Source: Desulfovibrio sp. TomC | Lineage (GTDB): Bacteria; Desulfobacterota; Desulfovibrionia; Desulfovibrionales; Desulfovibrionaceae | Direction of reading: 5' to 3' | Assembly (NCBI RefSeq): GCF_000801335.2 | Contig: NZ_JSEH01000004.1 | Span: 62,001 to 126,000, forward strand | Length of the DNA stretch: 64,000 nt | In this document: positions 20,333 to 57,831 of the stretch, piece after piece | Layout: each line of letters begins with the position of its first letter | Position numbering within the stretch: position 1 is the first letter of the stretch | Position numbers and translations under genes: made by a program | The notes under the pieces: model-generated | Told to the model about the DNA's origin: nothing | The model's database searches: none | What the model saw: the letters and a program-made list of their open reading frames with translations, nothing else

Positions 20333-20977
20333 ATGTTTCCAGATATTGCACGCGCTATTCAGGAGATCGCACTGCTGCTCGTGCCCGTGCTCATGGGCGT
20401 CACCTTTCACGAGGTGGCCCACGGCTACGTGGCCAACTGGCTGGGCGATCCCACCCCCAAAATGGCCGGTCGACTGACTTTTAATCCCATCAAACACCTC
20501 GACGCCATCGGCGCGTTGGCCTTTCTGCTCACCCGCATGATCGGCTGGGCCAAACCCGTGCCCATCAATCCGCGCTACTTCCGCGACCCGGCCCGGGGCA
20601 TGATGCTCGTGGCCCTGGCCGGACCGGCCATGAACGTCCTTTTGGCCGTCGGCTTCGCCCTGGTCATCCGCCTTGTGGAATATGCCGCCATGGGTGTCAT
20701 GCCAGGCACAACCGCCTACAGTATCCTCGAACCGCTCCTGTACATCTGCGCCGCCGGCGTCCAGGTCAATCTGGCCCTGGCCTTTTTCAATATGCTCCCC
20801 GTGCCGCCCCTGGACGGCAGCAACGTGCTGGCCGCCTTCCTGCCGCCCCAGCTCGCCGACCGCTACATGGAGCTTGGCCGGTGGGGCTTTTTCCTGCTGC
20901 TGCTTCTGGCCGTAACCGGCATCCTCGGCCGGCTTATCCTGCCGGTCGTCAGCTACTTTACCCATCTGTTGCTGTAG
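20333..20977 (+). CDS. Site-2 protease family membrane protein (M50)
   Basis: A 214-residue protein with about five membrane segments and no PDZ domain. The metal site is TFHEVAHGYVANWLGDPTP (HExxH), with the third ligand in MLPVPPLDGSNVL (NxxPxxxLDG). GRLTFNPIKHLDAIG is the family linker. I start at ATG 20333; a GTG at 20315 is also in frame and neither has a good ribosome site. trpS follows 57 bases later, a linkage I recall from other Desulfovibrio genomes. The substrate is unknown. Confidence 0.9.
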   Translation: MFPDIARAIQEIALLLVPVLMGVTFHEVAHGYVANWLGDPTPKMAGRLTFNPIKHLDAIGALAFLLTRMIGWAKPVPINPRYFRDPARGMMLVALAGPAMNVLLAVGFALVIRLVEYAAMGVMPGTTAYSILEPLLYICAAGVQVNLALAFFNMLPVPPLDGSNVLAAFLPPQLADRYMELGRWGFFLLLLLAVTGILGRLILPVVSYFTHLLL

Positions 20978-21033
20978 GTCGCGGCCTGCGCGCCGCTTTT
21001 TCATCCCCCCGACGACCCAATGGAATATCGATC

Positions 21034-22041
21034 ATGAGCGAAAATGCCCCCAAGGAAAACAGACGGATCGTCTCCGGTATGCGCCCCACCGGAGCCTTGC
21101 ACCTCGGCCACTACTTCGGCGTGCTCAAAAACTGGATCGACCTGCAAGACAGCCACGAATGCTACTTCTTCGTGGCCGACTGGCATGCGCTGACCACCGA
21201 ATACGCCGATCCCAAACGCATCAAAGGCTTTGTGCCCGATCTGGTCAAAGATTGGGTGGCCGGCGGACTCGATCCGCAAAAGTGCGTGATTTTCCAGCAG
21301 TCCCAGGTCAAGGAACACGCCGAGCTGCACCTGCTCCTGTCCATGACCACCCCCGTGCCCTGGCTGGAACGCTGCCCCACCTATAAGGACCAGCTCCAGG
21401 AATTGGCCGCCAAGGAACTCAATACCTACGGCTTCCTTGGCTATCCCGTGCTCATGGCCTCGGATATCCTCCTCTACAAGGCAGGCTTCGTGCCCGTCGG
21501 CCTCGACCAGCTGCCCCACCTGGAGTTGACCCGGGAAATTGCCCGTCGGGCCAATAATCTCTACGGCAACTTCTTCGTCGAACCCCAGGCCTTGCTCACT
21601 CCGGATTCGAAACTGCCCGGTCTCGACGGCCGCAAAATGAGCAAAAGCTACGGCAACGCCATCGGTCTGTCCGAAGAGCCCAATGCCATGAAGAAAAAAG
21701 TCATGAGCATGCTCACCTGCGAAAAACGCGCCCGGCTGACCGACCCCGGCGATCCCAAGGAATGCAACCTCTTTCCCTACCACGAGCTGCTCACCGACGC
21801 CGCCCGGTTGCCCGAAATCATCGACGGTTGCACCCACGCCACCTGGGGCTGCGGCGACTGCAAAAAGCTGCTCGTCGAATCCATGAACGCTTTCCTCGAA
21901 CCCATCCGCGATCGCCGCAAAGCCTTCGATAAAGACCCCAACCTCGTCTGGGATATCCTGGCAGCCGGCAATACCGTGGCCCGCGCCCGGGCAAGCCGCA
22001 ATCTGGATGCGCTGAAAAAGAAACTCAATTTTGTTTTTTGA
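21034..22041 (+). CDS. trpS: Tryptophanyl-tRNA synthetase
   Basis: A 335-residue class I synthetase with MRPTGALHLGHYFGVL (HIGH-type motif GALHLGHY), DRKMSKSYGNAI (KMSKS) and the tryptophan pocket segment. It charges tRNA-Trp. The ATG at 21034 follows the site-2 protease by 57 bases. The 3' end leads within 40 bases into the large multi-hairpin element at 22081. Confidence 0.97.
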   Translation: MSENAPKENRRIVSGMRPTGALHLGHYFGVLKNWIDLQDSHECYFFVADWHALTTEYADPKRIKGFVPDLVKDWVAGGLDPQKCVIFQQSQVKEHAELHLLLSMTTPVPWLERCPTYKDQLQELAAKELNTYGFLGYPVLMASDILLYKAGFVPVGLDQLPHLELTREIARRANNLYGNFFVEPQALLTPDSKLPGLDGRKMSKSYGNAIGLSEEPNAMKKKVMSMLTCEKRARLTDPGDPKECNLFPYHELLTDAARLPEIIDGCTHATWGCGDCKKLLVESMNAFLEPIRDRRKAFDKDPNLVWDILAAGNTVARARASRNLDALKKKLNFVF

Positions 22042-22200
22042 GTGGAGCGGGGTGAAGTGAAGTGAGGAAGAGGGAAGGCAGAAGATGCCTCCGGCGGCCG
22101 GGGGGATGATCCCCCCGGACCCCTCGATAGGGGGCCGGGATATTGGGAAGCGGGTGGGGGCGTCGTCTGCGGCGGGAGCCGGAGGCGGAGCGAAGAAAAT

Positions 22201-22271
22201 CGGGTCTGGATTTCGGGCGCTGGGTCCGACGCGGAAGCCGCGCCAGACCCAGCGCCCGAAATCCAGACCCG
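22201..22271. repeat. Hairpin H1 of element copy 1
   Basis: A 26 bp perfect stem (22201-22226 with 22246-22271). The 19-base loop contains a nested GCGG-AAG-CCGC mini-hairpin. In copy 2 the arm bases differ but still pair. Confidence 0.85.
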
Positions 22272-22280
22272 AACTCGCCA

Positions 22281-22334
22281 GCGGCCTTTGGCCGTTTGCG
22301 CAAGCAAAGCCTTGCGCAAACGGCCAAGGGCCGC
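22281..22334. repeat. Hairpin H2 of element copy 1
   Basis: A 24-position stem (22281-22304 with 22311-22334) with one G-T wobble and loop CAAAGC, followed by ATTTTG. It has the shape of a strong terminator for trpS transcription. Confidence 0.85.
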
Positions 22335-22515
22335 ATTTTGTTGGCGAAAGAGCAACCAGACAGGGTGAAGCCAAAGCAGGAGCCCAGCGACCTTAGGTAT
22401 TCTGGACTGGAATGAAAGTTGTTTCATGACGTCCATCAACAGTCTTGTTTCTTTGCCTGACCGGGTGGACCCAAAAGCACCAACGCCCTTGTCTTCCTGC
22501 CTTTCCGGGCGAACC

Positions 22516-22588
22516 GGTTGGTTGCAATTGGGGCCGCCGTGCTCCCCGCGCTTCGCGGGGAGCACGGCGGCCCCAATTGCAACCAACC
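22516..22588. repeat. Hairpin H3 of element copy 1
   Basis: A 35 bp perfect stem (22516-22550 with 22554-22588) around the loop CTT. This is far longer than any transcription terminator needs. It is the longest perfect inverted repeat I found in the window. Confidence 0.9.
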
Positions 22589-22799
22589 ATGCGGCACAGC
22601 CGCCAAGCGCCTCCGCGCCTCACAGTCCTCCCAGACTGCCGCGTTCGCAACAGCTCCTTATCCAGACCGCGCCATGCGCCCCATCCAGGGGGTCCGGGGG
22701 GGATGATCCCCCCCGGTGGGTCCAGGGCAACGCCCTGGCAGGTCCAGGACAGCGTCCCGGCGGGGTCCGGGGCAGCGCCCCGGCTCTTCATTCCCGTCC

Positions 22800-25244
22800 T
22801 CATCGCTGCGTCTCCACGCGCTTGATGTTCCCTTCGCCGTCAACCCGGACAGTGACTGCGCCGTTGCGGTTGGTGGCGTAGGTGGCGCAACCGAGGCGGG
22901 CCAGGGCGTCGAAGACTTTACCGGACGGGTAGGGGCCGGAGTCGCCGGCGCTGGCGATGGCTACTTTGGGAGCGACGGCGGCGTAGAACCGCTTGGCGAA
23001 GCTTGATGATGAGCCGTGGTGGGGGACGACGAGGATATCGGCCTGGAGGGTGTGTCCTTGGGCGGCGAGTTTTCGCAGCACGCGGGTTTCGGCATCGCCG
23101 GGGAACAGCGCCAGGCCGTGGCCGTTTTGGGTCAGGCGCAGGATGAGGGAGCCGTTGTTGGTGTTGCGGTCGTCGTCCGGGCCGGGGTGGAGGACTTCGA
23201 TGGCGAGGCCGTCTCCGAGGTCGACGGCGTCGCCGGCGGCCAGGGAGTGTTGGGGGATGGCCCGTTTGGCGAGGGCGGCAGCGATGGGGGCGGCCAGATC
23301 GCCTTCGGGGGTGCCGCCGTTGTCGTACCAGGCGTCGACGGTAAAGCGGGTGAGCAGGGAGACGAAGCCTTTGACGTGGTCGCTGTGGGGGTGGCTGGCG
23401 AAGGCCAGGTCGATATGCGGCGGGCGTCCGTCGGTGAGGCTTGCGCCGACAACGGCCCGGCCCACGTCGAAGCTGCCGAACAGGCCGCCGGCGTCGATGA
23501 GCAGGCGGCGGCCGCCGGGGATGGCGACAGCCACGGACTGCCCCTGGCCCACGTCGAAGACGGTGACGCTGACGTCTGGCTGGCTGTCTTCAATGCAGTG
23601 CAGGGCGGTTGGCGCAAGAAGCAGGAGGAGGCTTGCGGCCAGGCCTGCCCTGGGCAGGGCGCGGCCGGCGGCGGCCAGGGCCAGGATGGCGAGCAGGCCG
23701 TAGCAGCCGATGATTTGGGGCCAGGTGGGGCGAAGGACGGCGTGGGAGACGAGGAGCCCTTGGGCGTCGAAGGCGGCCAGGGCGCGCATGAGCCAGGCGC
23801 AGCAGTCGGCTCCGGCGGTAAGGAGCAGGGAGGCAGCCGGTTCCAGGCCCGGCACGGCGGCCAGGGCTGCGCCGCCAAGGACGAGCGGCATGACCACGCC
23901 CCCGAGGATCGGCAGCCACAGGAGGTTGATCCAGGGATTGAAGGGCCAGTCGCCAAAGAGCCGGGCGAGGAGCGGCAGGACGGCGGCTTCGGCCGTGATG
24001 CTGGTCCACAGGACGCCAAGCGTCCAGAGGAGGGCGGTGCGCGGCAGGCCCGAGCCGGGGATGCGCCGGGTAAGCCGGACAAAGGGCGGCCAGAAGACAG
24101 CGATGCCGGCCACGGCCAGGGCGGAGAGTTGCAGGCTGGCGCTGAAAACGGCCAGGGGCGAGACGATCAAAAAGACGGCCAGGGCCAGGAACAGGCCGTC
24201 AAAGAGGGCCTTGTCGCGGCGAAGGAGCAGCATAAGCCCGAAGGCGGCGAACATGAGGCCGGCTCGCACGAGCGAAGGCGAGGCCCCGCCGATCCAGCAG
24301 TAGGCGACAACGAGGGGCGCGGACACGAGGACAATGAGCAGAGGGCGGGGAAGACGCAGGTAGACGCCCGGGGTGATCCTGCCGAGGCCAAGGACCAGGG
24401 CCGTAGCCAGGGCGACCACATAGCCGACGTTCATGCCGGACAGGGCCAGGGTATGGGCCAGGGATGCCCGGCGCACCAGATCGAGGTCGTCCTCGGTGAA
24501 ACCGGATTTGTCGTCGAAGAGCAGGGCCGGCACCATGGCCCGTCCGGCCTTGGCGGCCTCGTCGAGGCTGGGCGCGTCAGGGGGCAGGGCCAGGGCGGCG
24601 GCGATACGGGCGCGAAGGGCCTGTCGCCAGGTGGCCAGGACATTGTGCCCCTGGGACAATCGCGTGACCTGGGCGCGGTCGCCTCGGGCGAAGGTACGGA
24701 AGAAGACGCCGTCCAGGCGACGCAGGAAGGCGAAATCGGTGGCGCCGGGATTGGCAAAGCCGCTGGTTGGGCGCATTCGGCCGGTGACGGCCAGGACATC
24801 GCCGGGCACGGGATCAAAGACCGGGTGGTCGATGGTGACGGCCAGCCGGCCGGGCAGGGGAGTCTCCTGGCACTCGCCCCCGGTCAGACGCACCGCTTCG
24901 AGTAAAACGGCCTGTCGGTTGCCGGGGCGGGGATCGACCTCAATGACCCGGCCCGTGGCGGTGACGGGTTGGACCTTGGCCAGACAGGCCGGCGTCGTAT
25001 CCGGGGGCGTGGGCATGGCCAGAAAACCGGCTCCAAGGCCCAGGGCAAAGGCGAGGAGAAAGGCGGCCAGACGCGGGGTGCCGGCCATGGGGCGCGGGAA
25101 CAGGAGCAGCAGGAATAAAGCGCACAAGGCCGGCAGGAAAAAAGCCACGGCCAAAATGCCGGCGGCATAGGCCAGCAGGCAGGGTTGCCAGGGGAGCAGG
25201 GGCGGCATTCCCCTGGGCGTGGGACGCGGCACTGATGCTTGCAC
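22800..25244 (-). CDS. comEC: ComEC/Rec2 DNA-uptake channel
   Basis: An 814-residue inner-membrane protein with three parts: an N-terminal soluble domain (DUF4131, about 70-190), the multi-span Competence domain containing HTLALSGMNVGYVVALA (about 260-520), and a C-terminal metallo-beta-lactamase domain with SHPHSDHVKG (HxHxDH) and VVPHHGSSSSF. It should transport single-stranded DNA into the cytoplasm. All three domains are present and the length is normal. It lies convergent to trpS across the multi-hairpin element. The start at 25244 puts a short leader before the first membrane span and could be shifted slightly. Confidence 0.95.
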   Translation of the reverse strand: MQASVPRPTPRGMPPLLPWQPCLLAYAAGILAVAFFLPALCALFLLLLFPRPMAGTPRLAAFLLAFALGLGAGFLAMPTPPDTTPACLAKVQPVTATGRVIEVDPRPGNRQAVLLEAVRLTGGECQETPLPGRLAVTIDHPVFDPVPGDVLAVTGRMRPTSGFANPGATDFAFLRRLDGVFFRTFARGDRAQVTRLSQGHNVLATWRQALRARIAAALALPPDAPSLDEAAKAGRAMVPALLFDDKSGFTEDDLDLVRRASLAHTLALSGMNVGYVVALATALVLGLGRITPGVYLRLPRPLLIVLVSAPLVVAYCWIGGASPSLVRAGLMFAAFGLMLLLRRDKALFDGLFLALAVFLIVSPLAVFSASLQLSALAVAGIAVFWPPFVRLTRRIPGSGLPRTALLWTLGVLWTSITAEAAVLPLLARLFGDWPFNPWINLLWLPILGGVVMPLVLGGAALAAVPGLEPAASLLLTAGADCCAWLMRALAAFDAQGLLVSHAVLRPTWPQIIGCYGLLAILALAAAGRALPRAGLAASLLLLLAPTALHCIEDSQPDVSVTVFDVGQGQSVAVAIPGGRRLLIDAGGLFGSFDVGRAVVGASLTDGRPPHIDLAFASHPHSDHVKGFVSLLTRFTVDAWYDNGGTPEGDLAAPIAAALAKRAIPQHSLAAGDAVDLGDGLAIEVLHPGPDDDRNTNNGSLILRLTQNGHGLALFPGDAETRVLRKLAAQGHTLQADILVVPHHGSSSSFAKRFYAAVAPKVAIASAGDSGPYPSGKVFDALARLGCATYATNRNGAVTVRVDGEGNIKRVETQR

Positions 25245-25410
25245 AGAACTGTCCGTTTTCCGTCACGAAACCTGTGGGGAGTTGTAGGAAGCTTGGCCAA
25301 TCGAGGCAAGCATGGCGTGACCTGGGCTGGCTGCTTGTCACCGCTTCCGCTTGGGGGTAAAGCTGCTAACGAATCCCGGTACCCGCACATCGGTGCACAA
25401 AGGAGCAGGC

Positions 25411-25752
25411 ATGGTCCGTCACATCATTTTAGTTTGCATACTCGCTTGTATCGGCCTTACGGGCTGCGCCAAGATCAAACCCATCATGATCCCCCAGGAA
25501 TTTGAAGCGGATTGTCGCCGCAATGCTTACGGGGCCGATGCCGCCTGCGCCGCCAAGGTCTGCGAGGTGTACCAAGCCGTTGTCACCGATTATTATGAGG
25601 ATATGGAAGGGTGCTATGCCGCCTGCAAGGATCGGGCAGTCTCCCTGGAGGCCGGCGCGGGCAACCAGTGCCAGGCGAAAATCACAGCGGCCAAGAATAC
25701 CTGCCGCGATTTCTGCAACCGCAAATTCTATCGCTGCAACTGCGCGAAATAA
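25411..25752 (+). CDS. Cysteine-rich small lipoprotein
   Basis: A 113-residue protein with the signal peptide MVRHIILVCILACIGLTGC and a lipobox cysteine at 19. The mature part contains about ten further cysteines in spaced pairs (CAAKVC, CYAAC, CRDFC, CNC), suggesting a disulfide-rich or metal-binding envelope protein. AAAGGAG precedes the ATG. It resembles the lipoprotein at 38906 in length and in a Tyr-x(7)-Cys-x(3)-Cys pattern. The function is unknown. Confidence 0.8.
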   Translation: MVRHIILVCILACIGLTGCAKIKPIMIPQEFEADCRRNAYGADAACAAKVCEVYQAVVTDYYEDMEGCYAACKDRAVSLEAGAGNQCQAKITAAKNTCRDFCNRKFYRCNCAK

Positions 25753-25806
25753 CGGATCCCCACGTCGTCCCGGGACGACGACAACAGCATCGACAAGGAG
25801 TACCCC

Positions 25807-26394
25807 ATGGCGGTCAAAAGAATTCTCATGCTTGTTGGTGATTACGTTGAAGACTACGAAGTGATGGTCCCCTACCAGATGCTGGTCATGGTCGGCCATG
25901 CCGTCTCGACGGTGTGTCCGGGCAAGAAAGCCGGCGAAACCGTGCGCACTGCGGTCCACGATTTCGAAGGCGACCAGACCTACAGTGAAAAACCCGGCCA
26001 TAATTTTGGACTCAACACCGACTTCGACGTCATTGACCCGGCCAACTTCGACGCCCTGGTCATTCCCGGCGGACGCGCCCCGGAATATATCCGCTTAAAT
26101 CCCCGCGTCATCGAAATCGTCAAGCATTTCGGAGCGGCCAAAAAACCCATCGCCGCAGTCTGCCACGGCCAGCAGGTACTTGTTGCCGCTGACGTTATCG
26201 CCGGTTGCCAGTGCATGGCCTACCCCGCGGTACAGCCCGATATCGAACGCGCCGGAGCGACCTACGTCGCTCCCAACGACACCTTCACCAACGCCGTCAC
26301 CTGCGGCAACATCGTAACGGCCCCGGCCTGGCCCGCCCACCCGCAATGGATGCGCCAGTTCCTGGAGCTTCTTGGCAGCAAAATCGAAGCCTAA
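25807..26394 (+). CDS. DJ-1/PfpI family protein
   Basis: A 195-residue cytoplasmic protein of the class I glutamine-amidotransferase-like fold. The nucleophile elbow is Cys119-His120 in AAVCHGQQVL, and an upstream acidic residue lies in GDYVEDYEV. Members act as glyoxalase-III/deglycase-like enzymes, chaperones or proteases; sequence alone does not decide. CAAGGAG precedes the ATG. The gene is 54 bases after the Cys-rich lipoprotein and may share its transcript. A terminator follows. Confidence 0.92.
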   Translation: MAVKRILMLVGDYVEDYEVMVPYQMLVMVGHAVSTVCPGKKAGETVRTAVHDFEGDQTYSEKPGHNFGLNTDFDVIDPANFDALVIPGGRAPEYIRLNPRVIEIVKHFGAAKKPIAAVCHGQQVLVAADVIAGCQCMAYPAVQPDIERAGATYVAPNDTFTNAVTCGNIVTAPAWPAHPQWMRQFLELLGSKIEA

Positions 26395-26440
26395 AGGCGG
26401 CGTTGCCGAGACGGTGAACGCCGTCTTTGGCGCAGCATGC

Positions 26441-26486
26441 CGGGGAGGAGGCGGATTTGCCGAATCCTCCCCGACACCCCCCCCTT
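26441..26486 (+). terminator. Terminator after the DJ-1 family gene
   Basis: CGGGGAGGA pairs with TCCTCCCCG around an inner CGG-x-CCG stem; a C-run and TTTTTT follow. Confidence 0.7.
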
Positions 26487-26570
26487 TTTTCCCCGGCCCA
26501 ACGATGGTATAGCCCTTGGCGATGACCGGCCCGGCAGCGGCCCGACCGCCCGCCGGCGCAATGAGGCGCT

Positions 26571-26990
26571 ATGATTGACACGACCAAGTTTGAACGAGTG
26601 CGGCAAATTATAGGCGATTTCGCCGTGAATAAAGGGAAAGTGCTCCTGCTCGTTTCCTTTCTGCTCTTTATCGTCGCAGCCTACTATGTCATGGATTTCA
26701 TCACCGAAGACAGCCTGGCGGTAAAATACAAAAAGACCACCGCCCTGGTCGAAGAAGTCCAGGAAACCAAGAATGTTCTCACCATCGTCACCAGCCAGGG
26801 CTTTTTCGTCGTCGATCCTGGCTTGCGCTCGGATAAATTCAAAAATATTGGCGACTTTTTCCGCAAGGTCAAAGAAGATGGGTCCCCCGTGCGCATCGAC
26901 TACAAAGACGTTGGCAACGACAAGGTTATTGAAAATGTTTTCTATCGGGCCGAGTCCAATAAATTCGGCAAGATAGGGTCGCTTAAGTAG
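26571..26990 (+). CDS. Hypothetical single-span membrane protein
   Basis: A 139-residue protein with a short cytoplasmic N-terminus, one membrane span at about 24-44 (LLLVSFLLFIVAAYYVMDFI), and a periplasmic domain of about 95 residues with charged beta-like segments (VLTIVTSQGFFVVDPGL). No cysteines or catalytic motifs are visible. Codon use is less GC-rich than its neighbours. It ends 18 bases before copy 2 of the large element. I do not recognise the family. Confidence 0.75.
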   Translation: MIDTTKFERVRQIIGDFAVNKGKVLLLVSFLLFIVAAYYVMDFITEDSLAVKYKKTTALVEEVQETKNVLTIVTSQGFFVVDPGLRSDKFKNIGDFFRKVKEDGSPVRIDYKDVGNDKVIENVFYRAESNKFGKIGSLK

Positions 26991-27128
26991 CCGTTGCCGG
27001 CAAAGGCGGAAGATGCCTCCGGCGGCCGGGGGGATGATCCCCCCGGACCCCTCGTTGGGGGGATTTGGCAAGTGGGTTGTAGGTGCCGGCGGTGACGGGA
27101 GTCGGAGGCGGAGCGAAGCGAAGAGAAT

Positions 27129-27199
27129 CGGGTCTGGCTTTCGGGTGCCGGGTCCGACGCGGAAGCCGCGCCAGCCCCGGCGCCCGAAAGCCAGACCCG
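27129..27199. repeat. Hairpin H1 of element copy 2
   Basis: A 24-position stem (27129-27152 with 27176-27199) with one G-T wobble. The loop has the same GCGG-AAG-CCGC core as copy 1. The A-T pair in the GGATTTC arm of copy 1 is a C-G pair here. Confidence 0.85.
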
Positions 27200-27208
27200 A
27201 ACTCGCCA

Positions 27209-27262
27209 GCGGCCCTGGGGCTTTTGCGCAACCAAAGCCTTGCGCAAAAGCCCCAGGGCCGC
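27209..27262. repeat. Hairpin H2 of element copy 2
   Basis: A 23 bp perfect stem (27209-27231 with 27240-27262) followed by ATTTTTTG. The middle of each arm (CTGGGGCTTTT) is different from copy 1 (TTTGGCCGTTT), with matching changes on the other arm. It is a strong intrinsic-terminator shape for the upstream gene. Confidence 0.85.
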
Positions 27263-27321
27263 ATTTTTTGAGTCAGCGTCTACGCTTTCAACAGGGTTGG
27301 TTTTTTTCTTCCGGGCGAACC

Positions 27322-27393
27322 GGTTGGTCGCAATTGGGCCGCCGTGCTCCCCGCGCTTCGCGGGGAGTGTCGGCGGCCCAATTGCGACCAACC
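27322..27393. repeat. Hairpin H3 of element copy 2
   Basis: Outer stem of 23 bp (27322-27344 with 27371-27393) and inner stem of 9 bp (27347-27355 with 27359-27367), separated by a small internal loop that is fully paired in copy 1. It has the same CTT apex as copy 1. Confidence 0.85.
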
Positions 27394-27611
27394 ATGCGGC
27401 ACAGCCGCCAAGCGTTTCCGCGCCCCACAGTCCTCCCAGACTGCCGCGTCCGCAACGGTCCCTTACCCCGGCCGCGCCCTGCGCCCCCATCCAGGGGGTC
27501 CGGGGGGGATGATCACCCCCGGTGGGTCCAGGGCAACGCCCTGGCAGGTCCAGGACAGCGTCCTGGCGGGGTCCGGGGCAGCGCCCCGGCTGCGTCCCGG
27601 CTCTTGCTCCC

Positions 27612-29048
27612 CTAAAAGAACATATCGCGGCGGCCGGCTTCGATGTCGTGCAGGCGTTCGATGGTCAGGTCGCGGATACCGTCTTTGGGGATGGTTTCCA
27701 GGGCTTCCTGGATGCGTTTTTCGCCCAGGGCTTTGGTTTCGGGGTCGGCGTAGTCGATCAGGTATTCCTTGAAGGTGAGCAGGGCGTTTGGCAGGCAGAC
27801 ATTTTGGATGGTGCCGTCTTTGGCCAGGCTCATGAAGCGGTCGCCGGTGCGGCCCTGGCGGTAGCAGGCGGTGCAGTAGCTGGGGATAAAACCGCGCTCA
27901 CACAGCATGCGGATGATTTCGTTGGGGGAGCGCTGGTCGCTGGGCTCGAACTGTTGGCCGTTATTGGTGTTGCTGGTGCCTTCGTGTTCCTCGTGGACTT
28001 TCTGGTAGCCGCCAACGCCGGTGCAGGAGCCGGCGCTGATCTGGGAGATGCCGCAGTCGATGAGCTCGTCGCGAAAATCCGAGTCTTCGCGGGTGGAGAG
28101 GATCATGCCGGTGTAAGGCACGGCTAGCCGGATGATGGCGATGATTTTTTTAAACGCCTCGTCCGGGACGAGATAGGGGAAGGTGTCGAGGTTGACGGCA
28201 CCGGCCGGGCGCATCCGGGGGACGGAGATGGTGTGTGGTCCGACGCCAAAGGTTTTTTCCAGGTGCTCGGCGTGCAGGAACATGGCGACGGTTTCGTATT
28301 TCCAGTCATAGAGGCCGTAGAGCACGCCGATGCCGACGTCGTCGATGCCGGCTTTCATGGCCCGGTCCATGGCGGTGGTGTGCCAGTTGTAGTCGTGTTT
28401 GGGGCCGGTCGGGTGCAGGGCGGCGTATTGGGGCCGGTTGTAGGTCTCCTGGAACAGGATATAGGTGCCGATTTCGGCGTCCTTGAGCTTCTTATAATCT
28501 TCGATAGTGGTGGCGGCGATATTGATATTGACGCGGCGGATGGAGCCGTTGCCGTCTTTGATGCTGTAGATGGCTTTGATGGCGTCGGTGACGTATTCGA
28601 TGGGACAGTTGAGCGGGTCTTCGCCGGCTTCCACGGCCAGGCGTTTGTGGCCGAGTGATTCGAGGATTTCCACTTCGCGCTTGATTTCGTCGGTGGTCAG
28701 ACGTTTGCGGAGCTGTTCCTTGTTGCTGCGTTTGTAGCCGCAGTAGACACAGTTGTTGATGCAGTGGCTGGAGATGTAAAGCGGCGCGAAAAGGACGATG
28801 CGTTTGCCGTAGATGGCTTCCTTGACCTTTTTGGCGGCGGCGAACATGGCGTCTAGAAGTTGCGGGTCCTTGACTTCGAGGAGCACGGCCACTTCTTCGG
28901 CGGACAGGCCTTTGTAGTCCAGGGCCTTGTTGATGATGCCGGCGACGGCCTGGGGATCGGAGGCCATGGTTTTGGCGGCGGCAAGCGCGGCGTGAATACG
29001 GTTGTCGTCGATGAACGCATCGGTTGTGCGCTGGGATTCGTCAATCAT
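27612..29048 (-). CDS. hydG: [FeFe]-hydrogenase H-cluster radical SAM maturase HydG
   Basis: A 478-residue radical SAM enzyme. The SAM-cluster motif is CINNCVYC (Cys96, Cys100, Cys103). The C-terminal auxiliary-cluster motif CTACYRQGRTG plus a further Cys in TIQNVCLPN near 395-420 distinguishes HydG from the related ThiH. HydG splits tyrosine to make the CO and cyanide ligands of the [FeFe] active site. It overlaps the TM1266-type gene by 8 bases and so is translated with it. No hydE, hydF or hydrogenase structural gene is in the window. Confidence 0.95.
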   Translation of the reverse strand: MIDESQRTTDAFIDDNRIHAALAAAKTMASDPQAVAGIINKALDYKGLSAEEVAVLLEVKDPQLLDAMFAAAKKVKEAIYGKRIVLFAPLYISSHCINNCVYCGYKRSNKEQLRKRLTTDEIKREVEILESLGHKRLAVEAGEDPLNCPIEYVTDAIKAIYSIKDGNGSIRRVNINIAATTIEDYKKLKDAEIGTYILFQETYNRPQYAALHPTGPKHDYNWHTTAMDRAMKAGIDDVGIGVLYGLYDWKYETVAMFLHAEHLEKTFGVGPHTISVPRMRPAGAVNLDTFPYLVPDEAFKKIIAIIRLAVPYTGMILSTREDSDFRDELIDCGISQISAGSCTGVGGYQKVHEEHEGTSNTNNGQQFEPSDQRSPNEIIRMLCERGFIPSYCTACYRQGRTGDRFMSLAKDGTIQNVCLPNALLTFKEYLIDYADPETKALGEKRIQEALETIPKDGIRDLTIERLHDIEAGRRDMFF

Positions 29049-57688: not shown

Positions 57689-57772
57689 CACCCGAGCTCG
57701 CCGAAAGCCCAACGCCCTCGCGGCGTCCGGTCAGGCCGGACGTCTCCGCCCGCGACCGCCCATGCAGACGCA

Positions 57773-57809
57773 AACGCGCCCCGATGCCGCCAAGGCATCG
57801 GGGCGCGTT
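57773..57809. terminator. Bidirectional terminator between argD and fdhE
   Basis: A 16 bp perfect stem (AACGCGCCCCGATGCC / GGCATCGGGGCGCGTT) with loop GCCAA, between convergent genes; tails are short (CGCGTTT, and CGTTTG on the other strand). Confidence 0.88.
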
Positions 57810-57831
57810 CGCGTTTGGCTGCAGACAGGGG

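Follow-up and report, generated by a model that had tools for sequence, protein, structure and literature searches.

The window analysed here, a stretch of 64,000 nucleotides from Desulfovibrio sp. TomC, contains two diverged copies of a large composite hairpin element (22081-22790 and 27009-27607), each lying between convergent genes. The copies belong to a dispersed mosaic repeat family of Solidesulfovibrio, found in one genus here. On balance, sequence comparison favors the reading that the element is a two-way intrinsic-terminator-like cassette whose arms are kept matched by template switching. In the proposed mechanism, one hairpin (H2), with a T-tract on the + strand, would end the transcript of the left gene, and another (H1), with a T-tract on the - strand, would end that of the right gene, while a third hairpin (H3) and small terminal palindromes would serve as accessory parts. 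Template switching inside each hairpin (quasipalindrome correction, reportedly treated by van Noort in 2003) would copy one arm onto the other, and the stem bases adjoining the T-tracts, the linker and the loops would be held by selection.

The element and its outward T-rich tails

Both copies share one composite layout. A module with a small terminal palindrome comes first and is separated by a spacer from H1; H1 is joined to H2 by an 8-base linker; a further spacer leads to H3, after which come a small hairpin and a right module of small palindromes. The two terminal modules are inverted relative to each other. H1, H2 and H3 are near-perfect hairpins in both copies, and the differences between the copies are mostly paired changes. 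The coordinates, the part order and all the paired changes quoted in an earlier note on this DNA were confirmed on re-reading both copies. At an analysis-specific score of 17 or more, the whole window holds 7 hairpins, and 6 of these are within the two copies. The sole further strong hairpin, at 57768-57814 in a 143-bp convergent gap, looks like an ordinary terminator.

In copy 1, H1 (22200-22272) has 27 contiguous pairs, two A-C mismatches, an inner stem and an AAG loop; it is joined by the conserved linker ACTCGCCA (22273-22280, + strand) to H2 (22281-22334), which has arms of 24 bases with one mismatch and a CAAAGCC core in the loop. In copy 2, H1 lies at 27128-27200, the same linker ACTCGCCA at 27201-27208 (+ strand), and H2, with perfect arms of 23 bp, at 27209-27262. 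The H1 and H2 hairpins thus stand back to back, and T-rich tails leave them outward: on the + strand after H2 (ATTTTGTT at 22335-22342 and ATTTTTTG at 27263-27270), and on the - strand after H1 (TTTTCTTC at 22192-22199 and TTCTCTTC at 27120-27127). In the window copies, 1 and 2 T of 8 are found on the inner sides, which face the linker.

Outward T-rich tails are seen across the family, in 48 distinct copies aligned with a covariance model (R1) of H1, linker and H2 that was built from 10 TomC copies. On average, 4.25 T are found both in the 8 bases after H2 on the + strand and in the 8 after H1 on the - strand, with at least four T in 37 and 38 copies, respectively, although the T-tails are partly selected for, since the source copies of R1 include the tail columns, and orthologues are not independent. 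Control 8-mers 16-24 bases away average 1.28 T on the H2 side (47 copies) and 0.79 on the H1 side. In seven copies H2 has collapsed to a short stub; its GC-rich base is kept in all seven and ATTT in six of them. Furthermore, a consensus terminator scan gives H2 as the first + strand terminator-like site after the left gene in both window copies. For H3, whose tails are not rich in T in either window copy, no terminator role is proposed.

The convergent placement of both copies was confirmed. Copy 1 fills a 758-bp gap between trpS, for tryptophanyl-tRNA synthetase (20881-22041, + strand, as the longest open reading frame (ORF); start at 21031 by the coding caller), and a comEC-like gene (22800-25244, - strand), and copy 2 a 621-bp gap between the gene of a 139-aa protein without Pfam or NCBIfam match (26571-26990, + strand) and hydG, for the FeFe hydrogenase maturase (27612-29048, - strand). 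Of 51 adjacent gene pairs in the window 7 are convergent, and the five convergent gaps called besides these two are 80-143 bp long. By a codon-usage gene caller, 61 of 65 elements have a gene called on both sides (the other four lack one on one side), and 52 of them are in convergent, 9 in co-directional and none in divergent gaps, a bias to be discounted in so far as orthologues were counted separately and are not independent and the 61 include a small palindrome (L047) admitted by a motif rule. The double-ended terminator cassette, one option raised earlier, is supported by this location and by the outward T-rich tails of H1 and H2.

The left terminal module of copy 1 (22087-22134, + strand) reads GCCTCCGGCGG, with the palindrome CCGGGGGG-ATGAT-CCCCCCGG (22098-22118) and then CCCCT-CGAT-AGGGG; its counterpart in copy 2 is at 27015-27062 (+ strand). 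The H3 of copy 1 (22516-22588), preceded by the flank GGGCGAACC (22507-22515, + strand), is a perfect palindrome with 35-bp arms, in which it differs from the other seven aligned copies, and is followed by the small hairpin GCGGC-ACA-GCCGC (22591-22603); the H3 of copy 2 (27322-27393) has an outer stem of 23 bp and a GTG/TGTC asymmetry. The right terminal module (22679-22783 in copy 1, 27485-27589 in copy 2, both + strand) comprises in copy 1 CCCCATCCAGGGG, a terminal palindrome and then tandem small palindromes. Such tandem palindromes, with varying arms and an ACCC-like spacer, occur in both of these modules and also in locus L168, and at comEC the count of their units varies among the genomes G005, G007 and G008.

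Covariation and how the arms stay matched

The family alignment comprises 50 matches (48 of them distinct) with E up to 1e-20, from 51 hand-chosen sources. Standard pairs make up 98.6% of the paired cells in the distinct copies and 71.9% in shuffles, and both sides have changed at 45 of the 51 pairs (547 such cells); an alignment fitted to a model favors pairing, but sliding the partners by one column lowers the pairing to 44-50%. Hardly any variation is seen in the GCG/CGC stem bases of H2, in the CAAAGCC loop core or over most of the linker. Over 43 full rows, mean pairwise identity is 91% for the linker and 95% for the H2 loop, compared with 63-67% for the arms. Between the two window copies, the middle of the H2 arm is TTTGGCCGTTT in one and CTGGGGCTTTT in the other with a matching opposite arm, an A-T pair becomes C-G in H1, and in H3 a T-A pair becomes C-G and a GGGG run becomes GGG, as the earlier note had described. 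Its claim that the arms change together stands for these changes. Pairing is imperfect, however, since the H1 of copy 2 has a G-T and a T-C as unpaired differences, in addition to the two A-C mismatches close to the loop that are common to both copies.

Paired changes are the standard proof of a functional RNA fold. A structured non-coding RNA, with its fold selected pair by pair, would explain the very strong covariation together with the conserved linker and H2 loop. The mismatches near the H1 loop (37 A-C, 5 G-T and 11 other) also fit, since their A-C majority would be G-U on the - strand. This explanation nevertheless appears improbable. With the ten pairs nearest the loop excluded, and by a hairpin finder that favors well-paired stems, non-standard or mismatched pairs number 18 of 1,328 in H1 (a class that takes in a few other hairpins), 2 of 536 in H2 and 4 of 440 in H3, and G-T pairs 13 of 2,304 over the three, so that the outer stems hold hardly any G-U, whichever strand is read. 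Counterpart loci differ by the presence or absence of whole hairpins, the family was found in one genus only, and none of the 13 Rfam matches with E up to 1 (11 of them to microRNA models) exceeded the gathering score of its family. The double changes described below are, moreover, rich in transversions, and a stand-alone structured RNA is not needed to account for the covariation. The protein-coding origin was rejected as well, with none of three ORFs spanning elements having an NCBIfam or Pfam match.

The route by which the arms change was followed in orthologous hairpins. The main set, between G005 and G008, comprised 20 loci with both flanks confirmed, 32 hairpins and 873 pairs; two of the 22 locus pairs (L125-L138 and L130-L132) were left out, as they matched on one flank and may be non-orthologous elements, and hairpins with more than 3 gapped pairs or less than 85% pairing in the second genome were dropped (six for the latter reason, over all sets). 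Nineteen pairs had changed on both sides and were still Watson-Crick, where by our own arithmetic independent change would give about one, and 23 had changed on one side. Unpaired arm changes, which the earlier note had named as refuting it, do occur in further copies and are here as common as the doubles, which goes part of the way towards that refutation, yet the paired changes remain far above chance.

The doubles comprised 16 transversions and 3 transitions and the singles 7 and 16 (Fisher p 0.0007); including the two one-flank loci, the ratios were 20:6 and 7:19. The remaining aligned DNA of the 22-locus set held 1,401 transversions and 1,933 transitions. The double-change spectrum is rich in transversions, whereas the G-U route should yield transition doubles, which points to arm-to-arm copying. 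Smaller sets gave 7 doubles for the G007 pairs (6 transversions), 18 for G000-G006 (12) and 12 for G000 with G005 or G008 (9), and the pooled close sets 28:13 for doubles against 18:30 for singles (p 0.006).

Loops and stem irregularities were informative too. In the orthologous H1 hairpins L210 and L225 the loop is inverted (AAG against CTT), while all 32 arm pairs are identical. Among 80 G005-G008 palindromes there were 1 such three-base inversion, 3 ambiguous one-base cases, 55 unchanged loops and 10 that were not comparable; no inversion was seen in the G007 set (20 palindromes) or the G000-G013 set (21 palindromes). In the H3 of copy 1, TGTC has become CAC, a multi-base change that makes the palindrome perfect, and the GTG/TGTC asymmetry is kept in the other seven aligned copies and in the G013 orthologue of copy 1. 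The quasipalindrome correction offered earlier as an option gains support from the transversion-rich doubles, the one loop inversion and this perfected H3, and the arms seem to be matched largely by template switching of DNA. Such copying is proposed to be the reason why the arms are almost perfectly complementary, and through it the arm sequence would drift at about the rate of flanking DNA without loss of pairing. Recombination between copies of the same genome probably also moves arms as ready-made pairs: in G006 the H1-H2 sequences of L107 and L108, its copies at the two window loci, are identical, against 79-81% for their G000 orthologues, and L033 is 70% alike to its G006 counterpart and 93% alike to a paralogue.

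The evidence for heavy covariation arising at the DNA level is the strongest part of the case. It may well be that this covariation, strong enough to pass as proof of an RNA fold, is produced mainly by template switching of DNA, with selection limited to certain stem bases, T-tracts, linker and loops of a two-way terminator, and the rest of the stems freely rewritten, both arms together.

Several observations weigh against a cassette of this kind. The H2 T-tract is weak in many copies of the S. magneticus group (e.g., CGCATGG). The consensus scan found one + strand site in copy 2 compared with 1.0 in shuffles, and four in copy 1 compared with 1.2, two of them beyond H2; it found no - strand terminator site in either copy, the interrupted stem and loop of H1 being outside the limits of the scan. 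For a terminator, far shorter stems than these (23-36 bp) would be enough. As for the arms, the G000-G013 set reverses the trend, with 2 transversions among 8 doubles, loops are altered otherwise than by inversion in 11 of the 80 G005-G008 palindromes, and recombination between copies may be behind some of the double changes. By analogy with pneumococcal repeats, convergent gaps would also be the places where neutral repeats survive best, and such neutral tolerance is a serious alternative (PMC3049150).

In its full form, this alternative holds that the elements are functionless palindrome clusters at convergent gene ends, made and kept by template switching and recombination, with the conserved linker and loop reflecting exchange between copies. 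Over 25 locus pairs (22 of G005-G008 and three with G007), in a count made before badly aligned hairpins were dropped, divergence was 4.6% in stems, 6.3% in nearby intergenic DNA, 5.1% in the distant flank and 8.4% in loops, so that the arms diverge about like flanking DNA and the loops in close pairs somewhat faster, as neutrality would have it; exchange between copies is likely, and G008 does without the element at comEC. Neutral clusters are quite unlikely, in our view, because the T-rich tails point outward, with little T on the inner sides of the window copies, the linker and H2 loop are conserved in copies with strongly diverged arms, and sites are retained across species.

Distribution, shared sites and mobility

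In the TomC genome (5.07 Mb in 84 contigs) a DNA search matched 81 pieces, of which many are terminal modules, and about 20 other places match just the first 45-63 bases (the left end) of the copy-1 query. A covariance-model search with R1 yielded further copies in the genus. In TomC itself it found 11 full-length copies at E < 1e-30, plus shorter or reverse-strand matches. On 59 genomes, TomC included, R1 had a match at 0.01 in 15, i.e., 13 of the 14 Solidesulfovibrio members and two weak ones outside; strong matches (E < 1e-20) are in 6 of the 14 genus genomes, TomC included (G000, G005, G006, G007, G008 and G013). The two outside matches, in G033 (E 9e-4; L092 inspected) and G051 (E 0.004), come from other genera and were not taken as members. 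In other genus members (L189, L190 and L191) a diverged relative occurs; its layout is related, its arms are different, its linker is GGGCGCCAGCG or resembles it, and its H2 is a stub. Across the phylum, 395 genomes were sampled with a strict filter and 7 candidates scored per genome, so that weak relatives could escape; at E 1e-6, TomC was the sole match and none of the 394 others had one. The H2 pattern occurs in 18 stretches of a named genome collection, from S. aerotolerans DSM 16695, Desulfovibrio sp. DV, S. magneticus UBA7700 and a Hydromonas metagenome-assembled genome (a chance place), a collection that is incomplete here, as the pattern in a slightly longer form fits loci of G005 and G008 that have no listed record. 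On reading the Hydromonas match (L152), no such hairpin was seen. Next to shorter elements (L043 1806-1852, L045 1789-1835, L047 2684-2730, L231 1457-1508 and others) another hairpin is found repeatedly, with a short loop and CTGGGGGAGGGAACCCCTTTT-like arms, and this type looks like a further module of the kit. No paper describing this repeat family was found in the literature searched.

Dispersed copies, inverted terminal palindromes and mosaic composition are what would be expected of a mobile non-autonomous element, of the miniature inverted-repeat transposable element (MITE) type or of the type of the repetitive extragenic palindromes (REP) and bacterial interspersed mosaic elements (BIME), moved by a transposase in trans and merely tolerated in convergent gaps. 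Terminal inverted repeats, a MITE criterion, are present as inverted palindromic modules, copies of one genome sometimes resemble one another more closely than orthologues do (L107 and L108 in G006), and in the available part of one study a convergent bias is described for repeats that were taken to be parasitic (PMC3049150). Site sharing argues the other way. Out of 90 fetched loci with the hairpin core, 63 share both flanks with one fetched locus of another genome, 17 share one side and 10 neither; for the 11 full TomC copies the numbers are 5, 3 and 3, and the three without a counterpart could speak for mobility, the comparison being restricted to fetched loci, where "neither" does not mean an empty site.

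For empty sites in sister strains, a check proposed earlier, one clean case was looked at, and it fits a deletion. At comEC the element is present in G005 and G007, and G008 has a single terminal palindrome; at the G008 junction the two terminal palindromes are fused, and there is no target duplication. The best reading of this junction is that the site is derived, by deletion through recombination between the terminal palindromes. Parts of the element are lost or gained as well: H3 and its surroundings are present or absent between counterparts at four loci shown (one with a single-flank match) and H1 at one, and TomC copy L034 is without H3, its flanks otherwise cleanly joined and the H3 flank still there.

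Y1 transposase matches occur in 8 of the 14 genus genomes (fifteen loci), and none in the copy-rich G007 (89% complete). Neither the small terminal palindrome nor the H3 flank was found at any of the nine Y1 loci checked; a linker-like 10-mer is at three of the nine, the exact one (L199) in sequence without the hairpin. Searches for carriage by plasmids (query H1-H2 only) and by phage or viral contigs (viral query the exact H2 pattern) gave no match. With sites shared, a deletion-type empty site and no transposase found beside the element, the mobile option raised in the earlier note is less well supported than the cassette, and we consider it unlikely.

Some loci differ in gene order. The two flanks of each of L033, L110, L115, L136 and L238 match different element loci in other species, and trpS and comEC adjoin different elements in G005. 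Judging from these split flank matches, elements may sit at gene-order breakpoints. In two species, a gene pair resembling nifU and nifS, judged by eye from ORF translations (L211 1436-4819 in G005, L226 1474-4849 in G008), is bordered by inverted, nearly identical two-hairpin variants of the element.

Relation to known elements and significance

The element resembles bidirectional intrinsic terminators in its convergent-gene gap and in the GC-rich stem followed by a T-rich tail each way. It differs in having two separate back-to-back hairpins, one per direction, with stems of 23-36 bp, and in forming a repeat family that has further hairpins and palindromic ends. The REP and BIME of the GTAG and CGTC families are likewise dispersed palindromes, located mostly in convergent or co-directional gaps, but with stems of 5-13 bp and a GTAG or CGTC tag, according to the part of the source available (PMC3733652). 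Compared with these, the stems here are of 23-36 bp and no association with a REP-associated tyrosine transposase (RAYT) was found. Copy 1 contains no GTAG/CTAC, and CGTC/GACG at four scattered places. An identity as REP with RAYT is unsupported, as no small terminal palindrome or H3 flank was seen at the nine Y1 loci checked and the tag does not fit.

The pneumococcal BOX, RUP and SPRITE repeats are over-represented in convergent gaps, which the available part of that study offers as a sign of parasitic elements (PMC3049150). Likened by layout, BOX is also a modular composite repeat with optional modules and a convergent-gap excess; in the same part of the study, most BOX copies are upstream of a gene (70 against 16 convergent; PMC3049150), whereas the Solidesulfovibrio family was not found in divergent gaps. 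Hairpins maintained by template switching share with this family the multi-base compensatory changes, loop inversion and perfected stems. In the accessible part of the rRNA study that describes them, 61.0% of the instantaneous compensatory changes are of transition types (PMC8794818), unlike the 3 of 19 doubles here, and the present case is one dispersed bacterial repeat family. The best reading is that the family is a variation on known kinds, a two-way terminator with long arms matched by template switching.

The transversion-rich paired changes at 20 loci, together with few G-U pairs and one loop inversion, point to DNA copying between arms. The family is a replicated data set for the rate of template switching versus point mutation in bacteria, and can be used to gauge how often covariation statistics mislead. 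The two-hairpin design for shielding convergent genes against read-through is testable. If the reading is true, the Solidesulfovibrio elements would be a natural assay for bacterial template switching and a warning for covariation tests.

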